DNA of 34,458 nucleotides. It comes from Oscillospiraceae bacterium. Its GTDB lineage: Bacteria > Bacillota > Clostridia > Oscillospirales > Oscillospiraceae. The first letter of the stretch is position 1. Each line of letters begins with the position of its first letter. The notes beneath the pieces were generated by a model, which saw nothing but the letters and a program-made list of their open reading frames with translations, made no database searches and was not told where the DNA came from. Both the position numbers and the translations under genes were made by a program. The DNA lies in assembly GCA_017617795.1 (NCBI GenBank), contig JAFZVM010000113.1, positions 1 through 34,458 of the forward strand. The letters run 5' to 3'. Positions 5,144 to 24,370 of this stretch are shown piece by piece.

Positions 5144-8100
5144 ATGCCTGATCGTATCTTTGCCCCCATGGACGGCAACGAGGCCGCCGCCCACGTGGCC
5201 TATCAGTTCTCCGAGATCGCGGCCATCTACCCCATCACCCCCTCCTCCCCCATGGCGGAGCACACGGACGAGTGGAGCGCCCAGGGGCGGAAGAACCTCT
5301 TCGGCCAGCCCGTCCGGCTGGTGGAGATGCAGTCCGAGGCGGGGGCCATCGGCGCGGTCCACGGGGCCTGCGAGACCGGCTCCCTGGGGGTGAGCTTCAC
5401 CTCCGCCCAGGGGCTGATGCTCATGATCCCGGTGATGTACCGCATCGCGGGCTCCCGGCTACCGGCGGTCCTCCATGTGGCCAGCCGCACCGTTGGCACC
5501 CATGCCATGAGCATCTTCGGGGACCACAGCGACGTGATGGCCTGCCGCAGCACAGGATGGGCCCTGCTCTCCAGCGGCAGCGTGCAGGAGGTCATGGATC
5601 TGGCGGCGGCGGCCCATGTGGGCGCCATCTCCTCCCGGATCCCCTTCATGCATTTCTTCGATGGCTTCCGTACCTCCCACGAGATACAGAAGATCCAGGT
5701 GCTGCAGCCCGCCGACCTGGAACCCCTGCTGGACAGGGAAGCCCTGGCAGCCTTCCGTGCCTCCGCCCTGAACCCGGACCACCCCACCCTTCGGAACACC
5801 GTCCAGAATCCGGACGTATATTTCCAGATCCGGGAGGCCAACAACCCTGCCTACGCCGCCCTGCCCGGGCAGGTGGAGGAGATCCTGGGAAAGATCTCCT
5901 CCCTCACGGGGCGGGAATACCACCTGTTCAACTACTACGGAGATCCGGAGGCGGAGCGGGTGATCGTGGCCATGGGCAGCGTCAGCGGCACCATTCAGGA
6001 TACGGTGGACCTGCTTCGGAGCCGGGGAGAAAAGGTGGGCTATCTGCAGGTGCACCTTTACCGCCCCTTCGCCTCGGATTTCTTCCGGGCCGCCCTGCCG
6101 GATACCGTGAAGCGGATCGCGGTGCTGGACCGGTGCAAGGAAGCCGGTGCCCCCGGCGAGCCCCTGTATCTGGACGTATGCCAGGCCTTCCTGGGCCGGG
6201 AAAAAGCGCCGCGGATCATCGGCGGCCGCTACGGTCTTTCCAGCAAGGATACGGACCCGGGCCAGATCCTGGCGGTATACCGGGAACTGGAGGCGGCGGA
6301 ACCGAAGAACGGCTTCACCATCGGCATCACGGACGACGTCACCGGCCTGAGCCTGCCTGTGACGGAACAGCCGGAGACGGACAAGCCCGGAACGGTCTCC
6401 TGCAAATTCTGGGGCCTGGGGTCCGACGGCACCGTAGGCGCCAACAAGAACAGCATCAAGATCATCGGCGACCATACTGCTCTGTACGCCCAGGGCTACT
6501 TTGAATACGATACGAAGAAATCCTTCGGCATCACCCGGAGCCATCTGCGCTTCGGTCCCTCCCCCATCCGCGGCGCCCATCTGGTGCGCAGCGCGGACTT
6601 CGTGGGCTGCCACAATCCCGCCTTCCTGCAGCATTTCGATATGGTCCAGGAGCTGAAGCCCGGGGGCACCTTCCTGCTGAACTGCCCCTGGACGGATGAG
6701 GAGCTGGAGCAGAAGCTGCCGGACCGGGTGAAGCGGTGTCTGGCCCGAAAAGGCGCCGCCCTGTACGTCATTGACGCGGACCGCATCGCCCGGGACCTGG
6801 GTCTGGGTAACCACGCCAACACCGTGCTGCAGGCCGCCTTCTTCCGTCTGGCGGGGATCCTCCCGGCGGAGGAAGCCGTGGGATACATGAAGGAAGCCGC
6901 CCGGAAAAGCTACGGCAGCAAGGGCGAAAAGGTGGTGCAGAAAAACCTGAACGCCATCGACGCCGGGGCGGAGGCCGCCCGCCGGGTGATGGTCCCCGCC
7001 GCCTGGGCCGACGCGCCGGATACCCCGCTGGAGGCGCCGGAACCGGAGGCGCCGGAGTTCATCCGGAACATCCTGCGGCCCCTGAACGCCCTGAAGGGGG
7101 ACGACCTGCCCGTCTCCGCCTTCAGGGGCCTGGAGGACGGGGTCCTGCCCCTGGGCACCACCGCCTGGGAAAAGCGGGGCTTCTGCGACCGCAGCCCCGT
7201 GTGGGATGCGGAAAAGTGCCTTCAGTGCAACCTCTGCTCCCTGGTATGCTCCCACGCCGTCCTGCGGCCCCTGCTCCTGAACGGGGAAGAGTCAAAGGCG
7301 TCTCCCGCCTCCTTCCGCACCGCCCCCGCCAAAGGGAAGCAGGGAGAAGGATTCCAGTATTCCCTCCAGATCTCCGCCCCGGACTGCTCCGGCTGCGGCA
7401 GCTGCGAAAGCGTCTGTCCCGGGGGAGCCATCCGTCTTCTTCCTCTGGAGGAAGGGGATTACCGGCGGGAGAACTGGGATTACGGCCTGAGCCTCTCCGA
7501 CAAGGGGGACGTGTACGATCCCGCCACCGTGAAGGGCAGTCAGTTCCGGGAGCCCCTGGTGGAATTTTCCGGCGCCTGTGCGGGCTGCGGGGAGACCCCC
7601 TACGCCAAGCTTCTGACCCAGCTCTTCGGGGACCGGGTCTACTGGGCCAACGCCACCGGCTGTTCCCAGGCCTGGGGCGCGGCCATGCCCAGCGTGCCCT
7701 ACTGCAAAAACAAGAAGGGGCACGGGGTAGCCTGGTCCAACAGCCTGTTTGAGGATAATGCGGAATTCGCCCTGGGCATGGCCCTGTCCTCCCGGCAGCA
7801 GCGGGAACGGGCGAAGCTCCTGGCGGAGGGGAAGGTCAAAACCGCCTCCGGCGCCCTGAAGGAAGCCCTGGAGGCCTGGCTGGCAGGTTTTGATTCCGCC
7901 GCCGGCACCCGGGAACGGGCGGAGGCCCTGGAGGCGGCCTGCCGGGAAGACCCGGAGCTGTGGGCCATGCGGGACCAGTTCGCCAAAAAGACCGTGTGGA
8001 TGTACGGCGGGGACGGCTGGGCCTATGACATCGGCTACGGCGGCCTGGACCACGTGTTCTCCACCGGGGAGGACGTGAACGTTTTCGTCATCGACACGGA

Positions 8101-13946: not shown

Positions 13947-15476
13947 ATGAACGCAAAGACCTATATCGAGCCTCAGACAACGATCCCCGTATATGATGAA
14001 TGCGACGTTCTGGTGGTAGGCGGCGGCTCCGCCGGCCATACCGCAGCCATCGCCGCTGCCCGGGCGGGCTGCAAGAACATCATCCTTATGGAACGGTACG
14101 GCTACTGCGGCGGCGACGTGACCGGCGGTTACGTGCTGCTCATCCCCAGCCTCTCCTTCCACGACAAGATCTATGTCCGGGGCATCCAGGAGGAGTGGTT
14201 CGACCGCCTCCGCAAGATCCCCGGCGCCGTGGCCGGTCCCGATCAGTCCCTCACCGGCAGCCATGATCCCCTGCTTATGAAGGCTTTCCGGGGCGTGGGC
14301 GGCGCCACCCGGGACCGCATCGAGTTCGGCTTCACCGTGGAGCCCAACCAGATGAAGATCGAGATGGACGTGATGCTCGCCGAGCACGCGGACGCCATCC
14401 GGGTCCTGTACCACAGCTGGGGCACCAAGCCCATTATGGAAGGCAATATCTGCAAGGGCGTTATCTTTGAGAGCAAGGAAGGCCGCAAGGCCGTTCTCGC
14501 CAAGGTGGTCATCGACGCCACCGGCGACGCGGACCTGTGCCGTCTCTCCGGCGCTCCCACCTCCTCCGCCATCGACGATGAGTGCCGCTGCTCCTCCACC
14601 GCTCTGGTGTATCGTATCGGCGGCTTCAGCAAGAAGGCCTACGGCGAATGGATGCGCACCCATATGGAAGAAGCCCGCGCCATGGGCCAGGCCGTCGCGC
14701 AGATCCACGGCTTCCGCGCCGGCATGATCGACGGCCCCACGGACGACGTGAGCTGGATGAACAACTGGCAGCCCAAGCATGACTGCTCCCTGATCAAGGA
14801 CCTGACCGATACCGAAATGAAGACCCGTCTGGCCCTGCGGAAGGTCGTGGACTACTACAAGACCGTCTGCCCCGAGATCTTCAAGGACGCCTACCTGTAC
14901 GACATCGCGCCCCAGCTGGGCACCAGAGGCTCCCACCGCATCGTGGGCGAGTACGTCATCTCCTCCAACGACTGGGCCTTCCCCAAGGAGCATGAGGACT
15001 GCATCGCCTGGCACTGCACCGTGGACACCCTGAACGACAACGCCCCCATCGAGATCCCCTACCGCGCCATCCTGCCTCAGAAGGTGGAGAACCTCCTGGC
15101 CCCCGGACGCCATATCTCCGCGGACCGCATCGCCATCGACAACGTGAACCTGATCCCCCAGTGCGTCGGCACCGGTCAGGCCGCGGGCGTAGCCGCCGCC
15201 GTGGCTGTGGCGGACGGCACCAGCACCCATACCCTGGACGTCAAGAAGGTGCAGGATATCCTGGCGGGCGAGCAGAACGTGCCCCTGCCCCGGAACCCCC
15301 ACACCGACGCCAGCTACACGGAGAACCTGGTGGCCCACGAGTACGGCCTGTATACCGAGGCCGCCAAGAAGGCCCGCGCCAGCGGCGACGCCGCCAGCGC
15401 CTACCGGCATTGGACCATCTCCGGCGGCATGGGCAACGCCAACGCCAAGCCCAAGGACCACACCGACAACAGCTGA
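13947..15476 (+). CDS. FAD-dependent oxidoreductase (FAD_oxidored family)
   Basis: This 509-residue flavoprotein has a dinucleotide fold at the N-terminus, DVLVVGGGSAGHTAAIAAARAG (shown here in part; residues 20-41), then ERYGYCGGDVTGGY, a cysteine-containing stretch typical of this family. VIDATGDADLCRLSG (about 196-210) and LLAPGRHISADRIAID near 385 complete the FAD site. Members oxidise or reduce diverse small molecules; the substrate cannot be told here. The start at 13947 follows AAGGAGG at good spacing; an in-frame ATG at 13914 lies upstream of that site and is rejected. It is monocistronic, with its own promoter and a strong terminator. Codon choice is notably uniform (C-ending), suggesting high expression. 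Confidence 0.88.
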   Translation: MNAKTYIEPQTTIPVYDECDVLVVGGGSAGHTAAIAAARAGCKNIILMERYGYCGGDVTGGYVLLIPSLSFHDKIYVRGIQEEWFDRLRKIPGAVAGPDQSLTGSHDPLLMKAFRGVGGATRDRIEFGFTVEPNQMKIEMDVMLAEHADAIRVLYHSWGTKPIMEGNICKGVIFESKEGRKAVLAKVVIDATGDADLCRLSGAPTSSAIDDECRCSSTALVYRIGGFSKKAYGEWMRTHMEEARAMGQAVAQIHGFRAGMIDGPTDDVSWMNNWQPKHDCSLIKDLTDTEMKTRLALRKVVDYYKTVCPEIFKDAYLYDIAPQLGTRGSHRIVGEYVISSNDWAFPKEHEDCIAWHCTVDTLNDNAPIEIPYRAILPQKVENLLAPGRHISADRIAIDNVNLIPQCVGTGQAAGVAAAVAVADGTSTHTLDVKKVQDILAGEQNVPLPRNPHTDASYTENLVAHEYGLYTEAAKKARASGDAASAYRHWTISGGMGNANAKPKDHTDNS

Positions 15477-15505
15477 GAAACAAAAACGCTCCAACGCTTT
15501 TTTGA

Positions 15506-15536
15506 CCCGCAGGGCTTCCCGCCCTGCGGGTTTTTT
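15506..15536 (+). terminator. Intrinsic terminator of the FAD oxidoreductase gene
   Basis: CCCGCAGGGC pairs perfectly with GCCCTGCGGG around TTCCC, followed by six T. Confidence 0.94.
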
Positions 15537-15557
15537 GCGTTATTTCCCGTACAGACA

Positions 15558-15586
15558 TTGGCAAATCTGCCCTGTCGTGGTATAAT
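15558..15586 (+). promoter_or_regulatory. Sigma-A promoter of the ATP synthase operon
   Basis: TTGGCA (15558-15563), 17-bp spacer, TATAAT (15581-15586). The AtpI-like ATG lies 28 bases downstream of the -10 box, behind AGGAGG. Confidence 0.86.
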
Positions 15587-15613
15587 ACAGAGTTATAGGA
15601 AGGAGGTGCTCCC

Positions 15614-15910
15614 ATGGAACTGTTTCTCACCGGGCTTGCCGCGTTCGCGGGGGGAGCGCTGATCTCCTGGGTGAACTATCTTCTCCTCCGCCGCCTGATG
15701 GGGAGCAAGGGAGAAACCGGGCTGAGCCTGGCCTCACCCCTTCGGATGCTCCTGAGCGCGGCCTATTTCCTGGCGCTGTACCTGATCGGAAAACACACGG
15801 GTCTCAGCCTCTATGCCCTGCTCATCGGCGGAGCGCTGGGACTGACGATATTGCTGGCCCTCTTCACCCGGCGGATAGCCCGGGACCTGGAGAGCAAAGG
15901 AAAGGAGTGA
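15614..15910 (+). CDS. AtpI/AtpR-like small membrane protein, first gene of atp operon
   Basis: This 98-residue protein has about three hydrophobic segments (near 5-25, 42-60 and 65-84) and a charged tail (RRIARDLESKGKE). Its size and position match AtpI-type proteins, which assist c-ring assembly or Mg transport, or the AtpR protein of N-type ATPases. Sequence alone does not separate these two. AGGAGG lies upstream and the stop overlaps the ribosome site of the a-subunit gene. Confidence 0.72.
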   Translation: MELFLTGLAAFAGGALISWVNYLLLRRLMGSKGETGLSLASPLRMLLSAAYFLALYLIGKHTGLSLYALLIGGALGLTILLALFTRRIARDLESKGKE

Positions 15911-15916
15911 TGCGCC

Positions 15917-16579
15917 GTGGGTGAACCCTCCGAACCGGTGATCCGCCTGTTCGGCATCCTGGACGTGACCGGGGAAGTGATCGCCATGTGGATCTTTCTG
16001 GTCCTGGCGGCTGTGATCTCCCTGCTGGTCACCCGGAATCTGAAGGAGCGGCCCGGCCGGCTCCAGAATCTGCTGGAGATCGCCGTCAGCGGTCTGGACA
16101 ACTTCTTTTCCGGCATTCTGGGCAGGGAGAACGGCAGGAAGTATCTCTTCTTCCTGGGCCCCTTGTTCTGCTTCATCATCCTGTCCAACTATTCCGGCCT
16201 CATCCCGGGGGTGGGGATCAGCAAATACGTCAAGGCCCCCACCTCTTCCCTCTCCGTCACCCTGGGGCTGGGCATCGTCACCTTCGTCTTTCTCCAGGCG
16301 GCGGGGATCCACGCCGGAGCGAAGCATTACCTGAAGCATTTCCTCACCCCGGTGGTGCCCCTTCTGCTGCTGGATGAGCTCATCAAACCCGCCTCCCTGG
16401 CCCTGCGTCTTTTCGGCAACATCTTCGGGGAAGAAACGGTGATGGAAAACCTCTACCATCTGCTCCCCATCGGCGCCCCCATTATCATGATGGTCCTGAG
16501 CCTGCTGTTCTGCGCCATCCAGGCCATCGTGTACACCATGCTCACCGCCTCCTATCTGCAGGAATTCATTGAAGATTAA
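15917..16579 (+). CDS. atpB: F-type ATP synthase subunit a
   Basis: This 220-residue membrane protein has five to six hydrophobic segments. SLALRLFGNIFGEE (160-173) contains the essential stator arginine (R164), and the last helix AIQAIVYTMLTASYLQEF is typical. It forms the two half-channels next to the c-ring. The start is a GTG at 15917 preceded by AAAGGAG; the ATG at 15909 is out of frame. Length is shorter than E. coli AtpB (271) but normal for Firmicutes. Confidence 0.94.
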   Translation: MGEPSEPVIRLFGILDVTGEVIAMWIFLVLAAVISLLVTRNLKERPGRLQNLLEIAVSGLDNFFSGILGRENGRKYLFFLGPLFCFIILSNYSGLIPGVGISKYVKAPTSSLSVTLGLGIVTFVFLQAAGIHAGAKHYLKHFLTPVVPLLLLDELIKPASLALRLFGNIFGEETVMENLYHLLPIGAPIIMMVLSLLFCAIQAIVYTMLTASYLQEFIED

Positions 16580-16621
16580 ACAAAACCCGGACTTTTCATC
16601 AACGAAAAAGGAGATTGTACC

Positions 16622-16855
16622 ATGTCCGATTCCGCCATTATCGCCCTTGCGGCGGCACTGACCATCGCCCTCTCCACCGTGTTCCCCGCCCTGGCCCAGG
16701 GCAAGACCGCCCGGGCCGCCATGGAAAGCATCGCCCGGCAGCCGGAGGCCGCCAAGGATATCCGGGGAGCTCTGCTGCTCTCCATGGCTCTGATGGAGGC
16801 CCTCACCATCTATGGTCTGCTCATCGCCTTCATGCTGGTGGGCAAGATCGCCTGA
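16622..16855 (+). CDS. atpE: F-type ATP synthase subunit c with altered glycine motif
   Basis: This 77-residue double-helix hairpin has the conserved loop ARQPEA (38-43) and the ion-binding glutamate E59 in ALMEALTIY. In helix 1 the usual GxGxGxG packing motif is nearly gone: [11 protein letters not shown] stands where GIGAGIGQG is expected, so Gly is replaced by Ala, Ser or Pro. Q26 and Y64 match Na+-ring ligands (Q32 and Y70 in Ilyobacter), but the Ser after the glutamate is A60. The coupling ion is therefore uncertain. Helix-1 glycine replacement is known to affect ring size in other bacteria. AAGGAG precedes the ATG. Confidence 0.94.
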
Positions 16856-16865
16856 ACCGGATAAG

Positions 16866-17288
16866 ATGAATATCCAGCCCAATATCCTGATCTGGACCAT
16901 CCTCTGCTTCTGTGCCTTCATGCTGATCCTCTGGCGTCTGCTGCTGCGGCCCCTGCTGCGGTTCATGGACGCCAGGGATGCGCGCATCGCCCACGCCCGG
17001 ACTCTGGACAAGAGCGCCCAGCGGGCGGAGGAAGAAGCCCGGCGGGAGGCTGAGCGGCAGCTTGCCCTCCGGCGGAGAGCCGAGGACCGGCAGCGGGAGC
17101 TTCAGGCGCAGCGGGAAGCCGGCGAGGCGGAGCTGAACGCCCAGGCCCTGGCCTTCCGGCAGGATACCGAACAGCAGCGGAAGGAGATGGAGGCCGAGGC
17201 CGCCGCCCTGGTGCCCGAGCTGGCCACCTCCCTCCATGACCACGTGGAAGCCTTTACGGAAAAGCTCGTGTCTTACGGAGAACGCTGA
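16866..17288 (+). CDS. atpF: F-type ATP synthase subunit b
   Basis: This 140-residue protein has one N-terminal membrane helix (ILIWTILCFCAFMLILWRLLL, about 7-27) and a long charged coiled coil rich in E, R, A and Q. The start at 16866 is 10 bases after the c stop and has only a weak upstream site, so translation may depend on coupling. In-frame upstream starts would overlap atpE and break the helix order. It is expected to dimerise with the second b-type stalk at the start of the next gene. Confidence 0.92.
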   Translation: MNIQPNILIWTILCFCAFMLILWRLLLRPLLRFMDARDARIAHARTLDKSAQRAEEEARREAERQLALRRRAEDRQRELQAQREAGEAELNAQALAFRQDTEQQRKEMEAEAAALVPELATSLHDHVEAFTEKLVSYGER

Positions 17289-19515
17289 ATGCATTTTTTA
17301 TACGCCCTGGTGAATTTCCTGCTCCTGGGCCTGGGTCTCTGGCTGGTGGGCCGGAGATCGGTTCTTCCCCGCTTTGCGCAGCGGCGAAAGGACATCGGCA
17401 AGGCCCTGGATGAGGCGGAGGCCCTGGAGGCCGCCGCCCTGGAAGAGCAGCCTGAAACGGAAAAGGAAAAGGAGCCCGACGCCCTGCCGGAGGAACCGGA
17501 GGACGGCGGGCTGGATGCATTGCGCCGGACCCTGGGATCGGAAAAAGCGCTGGCTGAACAGGTCCATGCCCGGGAGCTGGAGGAGCTCCGCCGGGAGGCC
17601 ATGGGAACCGCCCGGGACCAGGCGGTGCGTGCCCTGTGCCTGGAGCTGGGAGATCACCTCGGCCGGGAGCCCCAGGTCTCCCGCCTTCGGGCGCTGGAAC
17701 CCATTCTGGCGGAGCGGATCCTGGAAAAAATCAGCATCACCCCCGGAGATATGTGTTATCTGATGCATCACGACGTGCTGTACGTCACCCTCACCTCCGC
17801 CTATCCGCTGGCGGACGAGCTGGTGGATCTCATCGGTCAGCGGACCACCGCCCTGCTGCGGGAGGTGGGAGGCAAACCCTCCTACTGGGTGAAGGTGGAC
17901 CCGGACCTGATCGGCGGCCTGCGCCTGCGCATCGGCGATACCGTCTACGATATGACGGTGGAAAACCGGCTCTATCACCTGGAAAAGGATCTGCTGAAAC
18001 GGCCCCTGGACAAGGTCCTGGATAAGGAAAGCATCCTGGAGGACATGATGGCAGGGATCCGGGAGGCGGAGCCCCAACTGGATACCTTCCAGCTGGGCCG
18101 GGTCCTGAGCATCTCCGACGGTATCTGCTGGCTGGACGGTCTGGCGGACATCATGTACGGCGAAGTGGTGGAGTTCGACTGCGGCGAGCGGGGCATGATC
18201 CTGGATATCGAGCCCCAGCGCATCGGCTGCGTCGTCTTCGGCGACTATGAGAATATCGAGAGCGGCAGCCGGGTACGCCGGGTGGGCCGCATCGCCAGCG
18301 TCCCCGTGGGAGAGGCCCTCCTGGGCCGGGTGGTGGATCCCCTGGGCCAGGCCATCGACGGCAAGGGCCGCATCCGCACGGACCTGAAGCGCCCCATCGA
18401 GTACCCCGCTCCGGGCATCCCGGACCGGAGATCCATTTCCGTTCCCCTCCATACGGGCATCAAGGCCATCGACGCCCTGGTCCCCATCGGCCGGGGCCAG
18501 CGGGAGCTCATCATCGGCGACCGGCAGAGCGGCAAGAGCGCCCTGGCTGTGGACGCCATCCTGAACCAGCGCGGCAAGAACGTGGCCTGCATTTATGTGG
18601 CCATCGGCCAGAAGGAAACGGCGGTGGCGGAGCTGCGGGATAAGCTGGAGAAATACGGCGCCATGTCCTATACCACCATCGTCAGCGCCCCCGCCTCCAG
18701 CTCCGCCTCCATGCAGTATATCGCCCCCTTTGCCGGGGCCGCCATGAGCGAGTATTTCCTCTACTCCGGGCAGGACTGCCTGATCATCTACGACGACCTC
18801 TCCAAGCACGCCGTGGCCTACCGGGAGCTGTCCCTGCTCCTCCACCGCCCCTCCGGACGGGAGGCGTACCCCGGGGACGTGTTCTATCTCCATTCCCGGC
18901 TCCTGGAGCGGGCCGCCCGGCTCACGGAGGAGGCCGGCGGGGGCAGCGTCACCGCCCTCCCCATGATCGAGACGCAGATGGGCGACATCTCCGCCTACAT
19001 CCCCACCAACGTGATCTCCATCACGGACGGGCAGATCTTCCTGGAAACGGACCTGTTCAACGCCGGACAGCGGCCTGCGGTGAACGTGGGTCTCTCCGTT
19101 TCCCGTGTGGGCTCCGCCGCCCAGACCCCGCTGATGAAGCAGGTCTCTTCCCGTCTGCGCATGGATCTGGCCCAGTATCGGGAGCTCAGCACCTTTTCCC
19201 AGTTCGGCTCCGACCTGGACGACAGCACCCGCGCCGTCCTCTCCGCCGGGGAGCGGATGATGGCCGCCCTTTGTCAGCGGCGGTACGCCCCCCTGCCGGA
19301 CTGGAAGCAGGCCCTGCTGATCCTGGCGGTGTCCGAAGGCTTCGCCGCCGGGGAGAGCAAGGAGACCATGGAGGACTTTGAATCCAGCCTGTATGCCTGG
19401 ATGGAAACCTATGAGCCAACGATCCCGGAACGGCTGAAGACCGGAGCGAAGCTGAGCGGGGAGGAGATGGACCGGGTGAAGGAAGCCCTGGGCCGGTTCG
19501 TCCGGGAGGCCAGAC

Positions 19516-19532
<17 letters not shown>
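17289..19532 (+). CDS. atpA: Triple fusion: second b-type stalk - delta - alpha subunit of F-type ATP synthase
   Basis: One uninterrupted 747-codon frame. Residues 1-20 are a membrane helix and about 30-110 an E/A/R-rich stalk like a b' subunit. About 110-235 carry the delta subunit C-terminal signature (VTLTSAYPLADELVDLI, then VDPDLIGGLRLRIGDTVYDM). From about 240 to 747 comes a complete alpha subunit: GRVLSISDG near 270, P-loop GDRQSGKSALAVDAIL near 410, and VGSAAQ near 616. Separate atpH and atpA genes are absent. A b-delta fusion is established in mycobacteria; addition of alpha is unusual to my knowledge. Alpha occurs three times per F1 but delta once, so an alpha-only product is expected, perhaps from the internal start at 18048. 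The start ATG directly follows the atpF stop. The gene overlaps atpG by 17 bases. Confidence 0.93.
18038..18050 (+). promoter_or_regulatory. Internal Shine-Dalgarno and start codon for a free alpha subunit
   Basis: GGAGG (18038-18042) lies five bases before an in-frame ATG (18048, codon 254); a second ATG is at 18045. Initiation would give a 494-residue product starting MAGIREAEPQLDTFQLG, close to normal alpha length but lacking the extreme N-terminal helix that binds delta. Use of this site is inferred, not shown. Confidence 0.5.
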
Positions 19533-21733
<2,201 letters not shown>

Positions 21734-21734
<1 letters not shown>

Positions 21735-22036
21735 TGGCGGAGAAGCTGCGCTTCCGCCTCCTTACCCCGGAGGGGGAGATTTTTTCCTGCCTATGCGACG
21801 CCGTGAACTTCACGGTAAAGGATAACGCCTCCGGCGAGGGGGGCGGCAGTCTGGGCGTCCTCCCGGGCCATCTTCCCGCCGTGGCCGCCCTGGAGGAAGG
21901 GGGCGGCGTACGCTGCGTCGCGGGAGGAAAAACCGTTTTCTCCTGCCGGGTCCGGGGGGGCTTCGCCCGCATCGGCCGGGAAGAGGTGGATATTCTCGCC
22001 CCGGAGGTCAGGGAGATCCGCCGGGTGGAGGGCTGA
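21734..22036 (+). CDS. atpC: F-type ATP synthase subunit epsilon, short form without C-terminal helices
   Basis: This 100-residue protein has the epsilon beta-sandwich: RFRLLTPEGEIFS, GVLPGHLPAVAAL and the glycine-rich ending of the barrel. It stops at VREIRRVEG, about 35 residues before the usual end, so the C-terminal helical hairpin that inhibits ATP hydrolysis in many bacteria is missing. The ATG overlaps the beta stop (TGATG). It closes the operon; no clear terminator follows. Confidence 0.9.
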
Positions 22037-22387: not shown

Positions 22388-22472
22388 GATCGCAGAAGAA
22401 ACAGGATGTCCTCAGGGGACAACATCTCCAAGGACAATACCGCGCCTCGGAGGGGTTCAGCGGACAGACGCG

Positions 22473-22505
22473 CCTCCTTCGGGGTCATACCGAAGGAGGT
22501 TTTTT
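22473..22505 (+). promoter_or_regulatory. Terminator-like hairpin containing the ribosome site of the secreted protein gene
   Basis: CCTCCTTCGG (22473-22482) pairs perfectly with CCGAAGGAGG (22490-22499) around a seven-base loop and is followed by six T. AAGGAGG in the 3' arm is the Shine-Dalgarno site, eight bases before the ATG at 22508. Thus one fold can both stop transcription and hide the ribosome site. Upstream GGAGG (22449-22453) can pair with CCTCC (22473-22477) as an alternative fold, and another hairpin TGTCC/GGACA lies at 22407-22421. The leader resembles a switch; no known riboswitch class was recognised. Confidence 0.6.
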
Positions 22506-22507
22506 GC

Positions 22508-24370
22508 ATGAAATCGAAGCGGTTCCTGAGCGTTCTGCTCACCCTGGTGCTGGTGTTCGCCCTGCTGCCGATCTTTTCCGTTCCGGTCCGGGCGGAAGGC
22601 GGAAACTGCGGAGTCATAGAAGCAGATACCGGAGAATACGGGGATAACGTCACCTGGAGCTATTCCGATCATACGCTGACCATTAGCGGCACGGGAGAGA
22701 TGGGTGATCTCACGTGTCCAAACGAATCGAACGGCCTGATCGTGACTACTCCCTGGCGCAGCAGATACACTTATATAGAAGCTGTTATTGTCGAAAGCGG
22801 CGTGACGCGCATCGGTGCCTGGGCGTTCTCCGGTCTCATCCACGCAACGAGCTTCACGATCCCGGATACCGTGCAGGAGATCGGAGAAGGCGCTTTCTAT
22901 TACTGCACGGATCTGACGACGATTTCCCTCCCGGAGGGCTTGACAAAGCTGGAAACGGATGTCCTCAGCAAATGCAGCAGCCTGACGAATTTCACGATCC
23001 CGGAGAGCGTGACGAGCATCGGCGATTACGCATTCTATAATGACCAGAAATTATCGGAGATCACCATCCCAAAAAACGTGACGGAGATCGGCACAATGGC
23101 CTTTTGGTGTTGCAGTTCGCTGAAAACGATCACCTTCGAGGGCTCTGCGCCGGATTTCGGCAGCACCAGCAGCAGCGTGTTCTACCAGGTCACCGCCACA
23201 GCCTATTATCCCGGGAACGACCCCAGCTGGACGGAAAGCGTGCTGCAGAACTACAGCGGTAAGATCACATGGGTCGCGCGAAGCAAGCCTGCAATCACCA
23301 CCCAGCCCGCCCCCCAGACCGCCGCGGCGGGCCAGACCGCGTCCTTTACCGTAGCGGCCGACGGGGATGATCTTACATACCAGTGGCAGTATTCGAAGGA
23401 TAACGGAGAAAATTGGACGAACAAGACCGGGGCCACCTCCGCCGGTTACACCGTCACGGTGAAGGAATCCTATGACGGGATGCTCTACCGCTGCATCGTT
23501 TCCAATACGGCGGGCAGCGTGATCTCCGACAGCGCGAAGCTGACCGTCATCCCCAAGCCGGTGATCACCACCCAGCCCTCCGGCAAGACGGTTACCGCAG
23601 GCGCGAAGGCGACCTTCAAGGTGGCGGCCTCCGGCGAGGGACTGAGCTACCAGTGGCAGTACAAGGCCAGCGGCAGCAGCACCTGGAAGAACAAGAGCGG
23701 CGCTACCAAGGCCAGCTACACCGTCACGGCCAAGGAATCCTATGACGGCATCCTATACCGCTGCGTCGTCACCAATGCCGGGGGCAGCGTGACCTCCAAC
23801 AGCGCCAAGCTCACGGTCACCCCCGCCAAGCCCGTCATCACCACCCAGCCCACGGGCAAGACCGCTGCTGTGGGGGCGACCGCCACCTTCAAGGTGGTGG
23901 CCTCCGGCACGGGGCTCACCTACCAGTGGCAGTACTCCAACGACTACGGCAAGACCTGGAAGAACAAGACCGGTGCCACCAAGGCCAGCTACACCGTCAC
24001 GGCCAAGGAGTCCTACAACGGCATGCTCTACCGCTGCAAGGTGTCGAACTCCGCGGGGACCGTTTACAGCAGCAAGGTGCGCCTCACGGTGAGCGGGGTG
24101 AAGCCCAAGATCCTGTCCCAGCCCGGGGCGAAGACGGCAGCGGCGGGAGACAGCGTTACCTTCAAGGTGGTGGCCGCGGGGGTGGGGATGACCTACCAGT
24201 GGCAGTATTCCACCAACGGGGGCACCAACTGGCACGACAAGGCCGGGGCCACGTCCGCCTCTTACACGGCCACCGCGAACGCCAAATACAACGGCATCCT
24301 CTACCGCTGCAGGGTGACCAACAGCTATGGCAGCGTCTATTCCAACGGCGCAATGCTGCTGGTCAGCTGA
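22508..24370 (+). CDS. Secreted protein with BspA-type LRRs and four Ig-like repeats
   Basis: This 620-residue protein has a signal peptide (MKSKRFLSVLLTLVLVFALL, cleavage near VRA-EG, about 29). Residues about 75-245 carry BspA/LRR_5 repeats of the type IPDTVQEIGEGAFYYCTDLTTISLPEG. Four Ig-like domains of about 91 residues begin near 259, 350, 441 and 532, each with ITTQP or ILSQP, LTYQWQYS, and YRCxVxNxxGSVxS. The two cysteines per Ig fold are not conserved; only the YRC cysteine is. Such proteins bind host or polymer surfaces. No sortase signal or transmembrane anchor is seen, so it is probably released or held non-covalently. The start at 22508 is set by the AAGGAGG site in the leader hairpin. 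The last part of the gene shares repeats with the gene at the right edge. Confidence 0.9.
   Translation: MKSKRFLSVLLTLVLVFALLPIFSVPVRAEGGNCGVIEADTGEYGDNVTWSYSDHTLTISGTGEMGDLTCPNESNGLIVTTPWRSRYTYIEAVIVESGVTRIGAWAFSGLIHATSFTIPDTVQEIGEGAFYYCTDLTTISLPEGLTKLETDVLSKCSSLTNFTIPESVTSIGDYAFYNDQKLSEITIPKNVTEIGTMAFWCCSSLKTITFEGSAPDFGSTSSSVFYQVTATAYYPGNDPSWTESVLQNYSGKITWVARSKPAITTQPAPQTAAAGQTASFTVAADGDDLTYQWQYSKDNGENWTNKTGATSAGYTVTVKESYDGMLYRCIVSNTAGSVISDSAKLTVIPKPVITTQPSGKTVTAGAKATFKVAASGEGLSYQWQYKASGSSTWKNKSGATKASYTVTAKESYDGILYRCVVTNAGGSVTSNSAKLTVTPAKPVITTQPTGKTAAVGATATFKVVASGTGLTYQWQYSNDYGKTWKNKTGATKASYTVTAKESYNGMLYRCKVSNSAGTVYSSKVRLTVSGVKPKILSQPGAKTAAAGDSVTFKVVAAGVGMTYQWQYSTNGGTNWHDKAGATSASYTATANAKYNGILYRCRVTNSYGSVYSNGAMLLVS
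23284..24367 (+). repeat. Four tandem Ig-domain DNA repeats, period about 273 bp
   Basis: Units start near 23284, 23555, 23828 and 24101. Similarity is visible at the DNA level (for example TACCAGTGGCAGTA in all units), which points to recent duplication or gene conversion and favours recombination between units. Confidence 0.8.
24067..24105 (+). repeat. Left copy of 39-bp perfect inverted repeat shared with right-edge gene
   Basis: This stretch, from CAGCAGCAAGG to GGGTGAAGCC at the third/fourth Ig-unit junction, is identical on the opposite strand to 33922-33884. Flanking repeat sequence is also very similar for several hundred bases. Confidence 0.85.

Follow-up and report, generated by a model that had tools for sequence, protein, structure and literature searches.

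The genome of an Oscillospiraceae bacterium related to rumen species (assembly GCA_017617795.1) encodes, within one gene, a b'-like membrane stalk, the C-terminal domain (CTD) of the delta subunit and a complete alpha subunit of an F-type ATP synthase. This b'-deltaCTD-alpha fusion is real, and its junction is under purifying selection. We propose, with a probability of about 0.58, that it belongs to a working F-type ATP synthase in which each alpha bears a stalk arm of its own; such an enzyme would have up to three stalks and three a-subunits and could act at low proton-motive force. The window considered here, i.e. the whole stretch of DNA analysed, covers 34,458 nt of contig JAFZVM010000113.1.

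A b'-deltaCTD-alpha fusion in one conserved frame

The fusion gene runs on the forward strand from an ATG at 17289 to a stop codon at 19530-19532 and encodes 747 amino acids (aa) with no internal stop, exactly the single uninterrupted frame that a sequence-only reading had delimited at 17289..19532. It lies in an operon ordered as AtpI-position protein, a, c, b, fusion, gamma, beta and epsilon, with the following features:

15614..15910 (+): small membrane protein in the AtpI position, 98 aa, labelled by position
15917..16579 (+): atpB, subunit a, 220 aa (PF00119, 146 bits)
16622..16855 (+): atpE, subunit c, 77 aa (PF00137, 63.5 bits)
16866..17288 (+): atpF, separate subunit b, 140 aa (sub-threshold matches and position)
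17289..19532 (+): b'-deltaCTD-alpha fusion gene, 747 aa (frame, Pfam and NCBIfam matches, public loci, alignment)
17289..17444 (+): residues 1-52, b'-like part with the membrane helix and the first helix of the stalk (AlphaFold helix 2-52; ATP-synt_B in 5 of 7 relatives)
17445..17507 (+): residues 53-73, acidic Pro-rich hinge (pLDDT below 50 at 54-67; fast evolution)
17508..17765 (+): residues 74-159, second stalk helix, then short helices up to the delta CTD
17766..17999 (+): residues 160-237, delta (OSCP) CTD (PF00213, 44.6 bits; superposition on OSCP CTD)
18000..18023 (+): residues 238-245, linker joining helix 224-237 of the delta CTD to helix 246-259 of alpha (AlphaFold)
18024..19529 (+): residues 246-747, complete F-type alpha (TIGR00962 over residues 249-740; motifs)
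19516..20331 (+): atpG, gamma, 271 aa (PF00231, 143.6 bits)
20334..21734 (+): atpD, beta, 466 aa (TIGR01039, 774.9 bits, profile run on 20331-21734; ATG at 20334)
21734..22036 (+): atpC, epsilon, 100 aa (PF02823, 45.8 bits, N-terminal domain only)

The genes are tightly packed around the fusion, the TGA stop of atpF abutting its ATG and the gamma start overlapping its end by 17 bases. Subunits a, c and beta appear intact: subunit a of the window carries its arginine in the motif LALRLFGN (the motif with Arg was found in 21 of 27 a subunits, the pattern being missed in 6), and in subunit c the ion-binding glutamate is surrounded by MEALTIYG, which we take to be of the cyanobacterial H+ type. 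The separate b matched NF006293 (B', E=1.5e-11) and PF00430 (E=0.03), both under cut-off, and no Pfam match to an epsilon C-terminal domain was found in the 100-aa epsilon product. The protein in the AtpI position had neither a Pfam match over cut-off nor any NCBIfam match; it has a homologue in 26 of 28 loci, the two exceptions (L027 and L048) both lying near contig ends. Directly downstream of the operon, at 22406-24370, a secreted-looking 654-aa frame can be read as carrying leucine-rich and Ig-like repeats.

A non-canonical complex, using F1-like parts for another job as the F1-like ATPases of mycoplasmas do, could be argued from the divergence of b, gamma and epsilon, all of which fall under their NCBIfam cut-offs, and from a second ATP-synt_ab pair on another contig. 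We hold this to be very improbable, given that a, c, b, gamma, beta and epsilon are complete and in order, that Fo and F1 genes share one operon with the Arg of a and the Glu of c in place, and that alpha and beta both lie far above the F-type cut-offs (774.9 against 462.85 bits for beta). Where an F-type operon would normally hold a separate delta with N- and C-terminal domains, this genome (77% complete) holds the CTD alone, inside the fusion.

The alpha part is full-length, as the sequence-only reading had it: TIGR00962 (atpA) reaches 699.7 bits against a cut-off of 484.45, all three ATP-synt_ab domains are matched (ATP-synt_ab_N at residues 270-333, ATP-synt_ab at 390-605 and ATP-synt_ab_C at 612-736), and both the P-loop GDRQSGKS and the SVSRVG motif are present. 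The "delta subunit" of the same reading must be narrowed to its C-terminal half. The PF00213 match at residues 160-235 covers only profile positions 99-172 of 172, and residues 162-237 of an AlphaFold model superpose on the OSCP CTD at 1.6 Å over 75 residues, while no N-terminal bundle of delta was seen in that model of residues 1-262. This partial model (mean pLDDT 86.7) was the one used throughout; a full-length model built on a 25-sequence alignment (mean pLDDT 70.7) was poor over parts of alpha and was set aside. The second b-type stalk proposed for residues 1-150 is only weakly supported by the window protein, where PF00430 gave E=0.03, under cut-off, no NCBIfam family matched residues 1-150 at E<=0.01, and no Pfam or NCBIfam family matched residues 1-155 over cut-off. 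It finds better support in fused relatives, as ATP-synt_B exceeded the Pfam cut-off in five (L112, L113, L116, L117 and L029) of the seven tested, L118 and L045 being the others.

The same one-frame fusion was recovered by tblastn in 27 of 32 public loci (L026-L050, L052 and L054, of which L048 and L050 end at contig ends), with best-segment identities of 59-96%. The remaining five comprise four loci with separate alpha frames (L051 and L055-L057) and one alpha fragment (L053); L051 and the Planctomycetota/Kuenenia loci L055-L057 had resembled fusions through joined tblastn pieces and were rejected, their alpha occupying a separate frame of 505-515 aa. Selection differed along the chain. Compared with L027, L054 and L028, dN/dS was 0.06-0.11 over the delta CTD, 0.13-0.33 over the deltaCTD-alpha junction (residues 239-268) and 0.14-0.17 over alpha. 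In the same pairs, residues 1-52 gave 0.07 and 0.25, and the hinge (residues 53-76) was relaxed at 0.96 and 0.51, dS being saturated against L054 in both segments. Invariant positions in the 25-sequence alignment include Y5, N9, L13, R32, D41, P152-D154 and numerous positions in the delta CTD. The covalent tie of membrane stalk to F1 head, which had been suggested from the window alone, is thus conserved in relatives and under selection.

A missed stop, a frameshift error or a mis-assembly joining three normal genes was the obvious concern for a window drawn from an incomplete assembly of 155 contigs, and the sequence-only reading had named the interval between codons 235 and 255 as the place where such an error would lie. 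The recurrence of the identical frame (27 of the 32 public loci, besides many further genomes), the confinement of the delta match to the CTD in every b'-deltaCTD-alpha gene scanned, and the selection acting on the junction leave an artefact with a negligible probability, and we regard it as ruled out.

A series of fusion designs among relatives

Forty loci chosen from OSCP matches in the family and order of the window resolved into several architectures. Full delta-alpha fusions that keep the delta N-terminal domain (NTD) occur in 8 of the 40 (662-697 aa, L081-L088), deltaCTD-alpha fusions in 12 (573-610 aa, L089-L098, L100 and L120) and b'-deltaCTD-alpha fusions in 8 (736-812 aa, L112-L119). 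In five loci (L106-L110) the delta CTD alone is encoded by a separate "mini-delta" gene (72-76 aa) beside an alpha of normal size, and four (L101-L104) combine a b-deltaCTD gene with a normal alpha; L111 has a normal delta, and L105 is ended by its contig end.

Some of these loci showed further peculiarities. In L099, from position 6041, two tandem delta CTDs are followed by alpha in one 675-aa frame. L089 holds a 242-aa b'-deltaCTD (from 4847) adjacent to a 578-aa deltaCTD-alpha (from 5624), is nested in the b'-deltaCTD-alpha group, and looks like a split of the fusion with a second CTD. L107 is a second operon copy in the genome of L106, with alpha split into two frames. The four b-deltaCTD loci L101-L104 also place gamma, a rotor subunit, and beta, a stator subunit, in one open frame of 766-769 aa (from 4067 in L101); such a frame is found as well in L092, on a contig containing N, and the 795-aa beta frames of G666 and G716 are taken as gamma-beta by frame length only. 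How a covalent gamma-beta chain would rotate is puzzling. Equally puzzling is the stoichiometry of L081-L088, as three NTDs could hardly share the F1 axis; these loci keep the NTD, and fusion alone therefore need not mean three stalks.

On an unrooted alpha tree (100 rows, quick maximum likelihood, SH-aLRT support), the b'-deltaCTD-alpha type formed one group including L089 (support 98). The full delta-alpha fusions, most deltaCTD-alpha fusions and two normal deltas made up a second group (98), and the mini-delta, the b-deltaCTD and two deltaCTD-alpha loci a third (100). With delta-alpha fusions spread over three separate groups, the plain reading of the tree would be separate origins; one early fusion followed by repeated splits is possible.

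Wider scans with TIGR00962 replaced a phylum-level PF00213 scan (398 genomes) that returned strong matches only and in which fusions were not visible. The frames counted in these TIGR00962 scans may extend upstream beyond the actual start codon, and frame length serves only as a proxy for fusion. At the level of the order (157 genomes), 25 of 70 alpha rows over cut-off measured at least 579 aa and 7 of 70 at least 737 aa. The 579-aa mark was reached by 22 of 101 alpha rows in the class scan (138 genomes). In the phylum scan (139 genomes), 121 genomes had an alpha row over cut-off and 12 of these reached the mark, G299 through an insertion; across the class and phylum scans the window alone reached 735 aa. 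In G299, alpha lies in one 637-aa frame (contig 4, 8120-9961) with an insertion of about 100 aa mid-frame.

Supply of alpha and the question of two products

If every alpha of the complex carries a stalk, no other gene should provide delta or alpha. In the window's own genome (77% complete), the fusion is the single OSCP match, and the four ATP-synt_ab matches correspond to the fused alpha, to beta and to two frames on contig 20, with no second alpha of the F type; the absence of a separate atpH or atpA, which had been claimed from the window, therefore extends to the available genome. The contig 20 frames (15202-17371; 728 and 499 aa) form a second ATP-synt_ab pair that we read as probable V/A-type A and B subunits.

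A TIGR00962 search of 25 chosen genomes returned an alpha frame of at least 737 aa in 19, with OSCP in the same frame as alpha in 15 of these 19 and the other four (G680, G704, G678 and G650) judged by length alone. Sixteen of the 19 had no other alpha over cut-off, and in nine of those 16, each at least 90% complete (G010, G054, G055, G107, G122, G130, G137, G180 and G196), the fusion was the sole OSCP match. Because these nine relatives lack any other match to delta or to an F-type alpha, the fused gene should supply all alphas of the complex. An additional unfused alpha occurs in G002, G175 and G680, accompanied by a standard delta in G002 and G175.

The sequence-only reading had seen a conflict between a fused chain and the 3:1 ratio of alpha to delta, unless two products exist. 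Such products could arise if a single fused chain entered each complex and free alpha were made by internal initiation or by proteolysis of the linker, giving an ordinary one-stalk enzyme with its stalk anchored covalently on one alpha. We scanned 34 fused genes (a set that includes the near-duplicates L029/L114 and window/L026, and from which L052 and L115 were missed by the anchor) for a start codon with a Shine-Dalgarno (SD) energy of at most -6 kcal/mol within 40 codons of the alpha boundary. Such a site was present in 8 of the 34 genes, at six different positions, and none reached the threshold in the other 26; among 1444 control windows of equal size, taken within those alphas, the rate was 18.7%. 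The scan detected gamma starts in 30 of 34 cases, and in separately encoded alphas it found an SD with a start at the first codon in 8 of 8. A conserved internal start for alpha in the b'-deltaCTD-alpha type was rejected on these grounds.

The two best sites, at -9.3 kcal/mol, belong to the window, where ctGGAGGacatgATG lies at codon 254, and to its near-twin L026; at or below -9 kcal/mol these are 2 of 34 genes against 1.8% of control windows, and an internal start at codon 254 is possible in both. For the deltaCTD-alpha type, a site at or below -6 kcal/mol was seen in 7 of 13 genes against 21% of control windows, with varying positions, and internal starts may be used there; in the full delta-alpha type the count is 1 of 8 against 36%. 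All four gamma-beta loci L101-L104 (three distinct sequences) retain, within the shared frame, an ATG with a strong SD (-10.3 to -11.7) ahead of beta, which suggests internal initiation of beta and shows that fused frames with likely internal starts exist in the same family. The window site, the deltaCTD-alpha counts and the gamma-beta loci speak for two products. Against them stand the low, scattered and near-control count in the window's own type and a junction region that is conserved rather than decaying, and we consider a two-product enzyme unlikely. That the ratio conflict forces two products, as first posed, is not supported: it is probably met by three stalk arms, and would disappear if three arms are built, as in an engineered enzyme whose alpha carries the delta CTD (Ueno et al. 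2025, PMC12229609).

A candidate multi-stalk ATP synthase

According to Ueno et al. (2025, PMC12229609), the delta NTD, sitting on the three-fold symmetry axis, restricts FoF1 to a single stalk. When they removed it from Bacillus PS3 FoF1 and joined delta residues 105-178 to alpha, the resulting enzyme carried as many as three stalks and three a-subunits, and its H+/ATP ratio was 5.8 instead of 3.0, the natural range being quoted as 2.7-5 (PMC12229609). On average this enzyme held two stalks and two a-subunits, not three, with a at 2.2-fold and b at 1.8-fold the wild-type level, and the stalks seen always retained an a-subunit (PMC12229609). The structure 9JC1 named in that article is also the best PDB match of the whole window fusion (9jc1_I, 606.8 bits, residues 170-732), with a delta-alpha fusion in three chains.

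By the published description of the engineered delta-deltaN-alpha FoF1, the window fusion shares with it a delta reduced to its C-terminal part and fused N-terminally to alpha, the NTD being absent, as well as an epsilon lacking its CTD and the lack of free delta or alpha, here in its own genome (77% complete) and in nine relatives, with the extra unfused alphas of G002, G175 and G680 as exceptions. It differs in being natural and in carrying a b' membrane stalk in the chain: where a separate b2 homodimer binds the fused delta CTD of the engineered enzyme, the window type has a b'-like helix in the chain and one separate b gene, presumably giving a b/b' pair. The window gene makes the same two moves as Ueno et al., loss of the NTD and fusion to alpha, and adds a stalk, from which we infer three arms.

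In the enzyme we propose, each arm would consist of the b' membrane helix, the stalk, the delta CTD and alpha, in that order, the delta NTD having been lost according to both profile and model. Three fused chains would make up F1, because complete relatives have no other match to delta or F-type alpha and an internal start is unconserved in the 34 genes, and each arm would pair with the separate b, because the b gene lies directly upstream of the fusion. By analogy with the engineered enzyme, each arm may bring its own a-subunit to the c-ring, so that stalks and a-subunits would each number up to three, with an H+/ATP ratio rising in proportion to the number of a-subunits. At low proton-motive force, such an enzyme could synthesise ATP or pump protons at little cost. 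More tentatively, and at somewhat less than even odds, we envisage a natural obligate three-stalk enzyme with three b'-deltaCTD-alpha arms, three b, three a and one c-ring, working at an H+/ATP ratio above 2.7-5 in anaerobes that live on weak ion gradients. If this were true, the covalent arm would also prevent the loss of stalks by which the engineered enzyme was limited.

All three alphas may also be fused while a single arm works as a stalk with b and a, the other two idle, folded aside or inserted in the membrane without a. The single a gene per operon in the loci examined would fit such idle arms, as would a hinge (residues 53-73) that is predicted to be disordered, evolves fast and need not be stiff, and the average of two a-subunits in the engineered enzyme (PMC12229609). 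Yet the conservation of the delta CTD, and to a lesser degree of the membrane helix, is hard to reconcile with two thirds of the copies being idle, and the stalks observed in the engineered enzyme always kept their a-subunit (PMC12229609); we judge idle arms to be quite unlikely.

Several known systems share parts of this architecture. Structurally, the nearest chain joining b and delta is the mycobacterial b-delta (445 aa), which keeps the delta NTD and works with alpha as a separate chain, unlike the window type, where the NTD is absent and alpha is fused. N-ATPases have an AtpF (TIGR03321) that is a b with a delta-CTD-like end and, as in the window type, no separate delta gene; the b'-deltaCTD module of L116 aligned with TIGR03321 over 9-232 of 246 (E 6e-18), under the family cut-off. 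Alpha (TIGR03324, 574 against 750.5), beta (TIGR03305, 580.4 against 752), a (TIGR03306, 115.2 against 302.1) and c (TIGR03322, 45.8 against 130.85) all scored below the N-ATPase cut-offs, and the window order (I-a-c-b-fusion-gamma-beta-epsilon) differs from the N-ATPase operon, in which beta and epsilon come first and atpR is present. Subunit E of V-ATPases and FliH are close systems as well, each with a stalk helix and a globular head; in the consulted part of PMC5706428, the N-ATPase b is described as similar to A-type subunit E, which FliH structurally resembles. Excerpts of two other articles mention b/delta fusions in Gordonia and Mycobacterium together with delta-less units in Clostridia (PMC5709465), and hint that alpha may contain a b in an N-ATPase of Azospirillum (PMC4154653).

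Natural delta-alpha fusions without the NTD are already in print, in Acidaminococcus fermentans (UniProt G4Q3K6 and A0A1I2C5T3; PMC12229609). By the authors' account these have the same deltaCTD-alpha order and the same NTD loss; the window type adds b', of which the available excerpts of that article make no mention for Acidaminococcus. Our alpha tree holds no Acidaminococcus, and the b'-deltaCTD-alpha type is a group of its own on it. A b'-delta-alpha chain was not found in the open-access articles searched. Compared with the fusions described in the consulted part of PMC12229609, the new part is the added covalent b' arm.

The window's own genome also contains an Rnf/Nqr D-type match (G000 contig 141, 1766-2704) in a 541-aa frame, longer than expected for RnfD and possibly another fusion. 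Together with the V/A-type pair, this match is compatible with life on small ion gradients and is silent on the direction in which the enzymes work.

The accepted rule for F-type ATP synthases is one stalk and one a-subunit per complex, with the size of the c-ring as the natural way to change H+/ATP. The series of designs in this family (separate delta, full delta-alpha, deltaCTD-alpha, b'-deltaCTD-alpha and mini-delta) makes the role of the delta NTD directly testable. The gene family described here suggests that evolution reached the multi-stalk route engineered in 2025 and extended it, by building the stalk into alpha itself.
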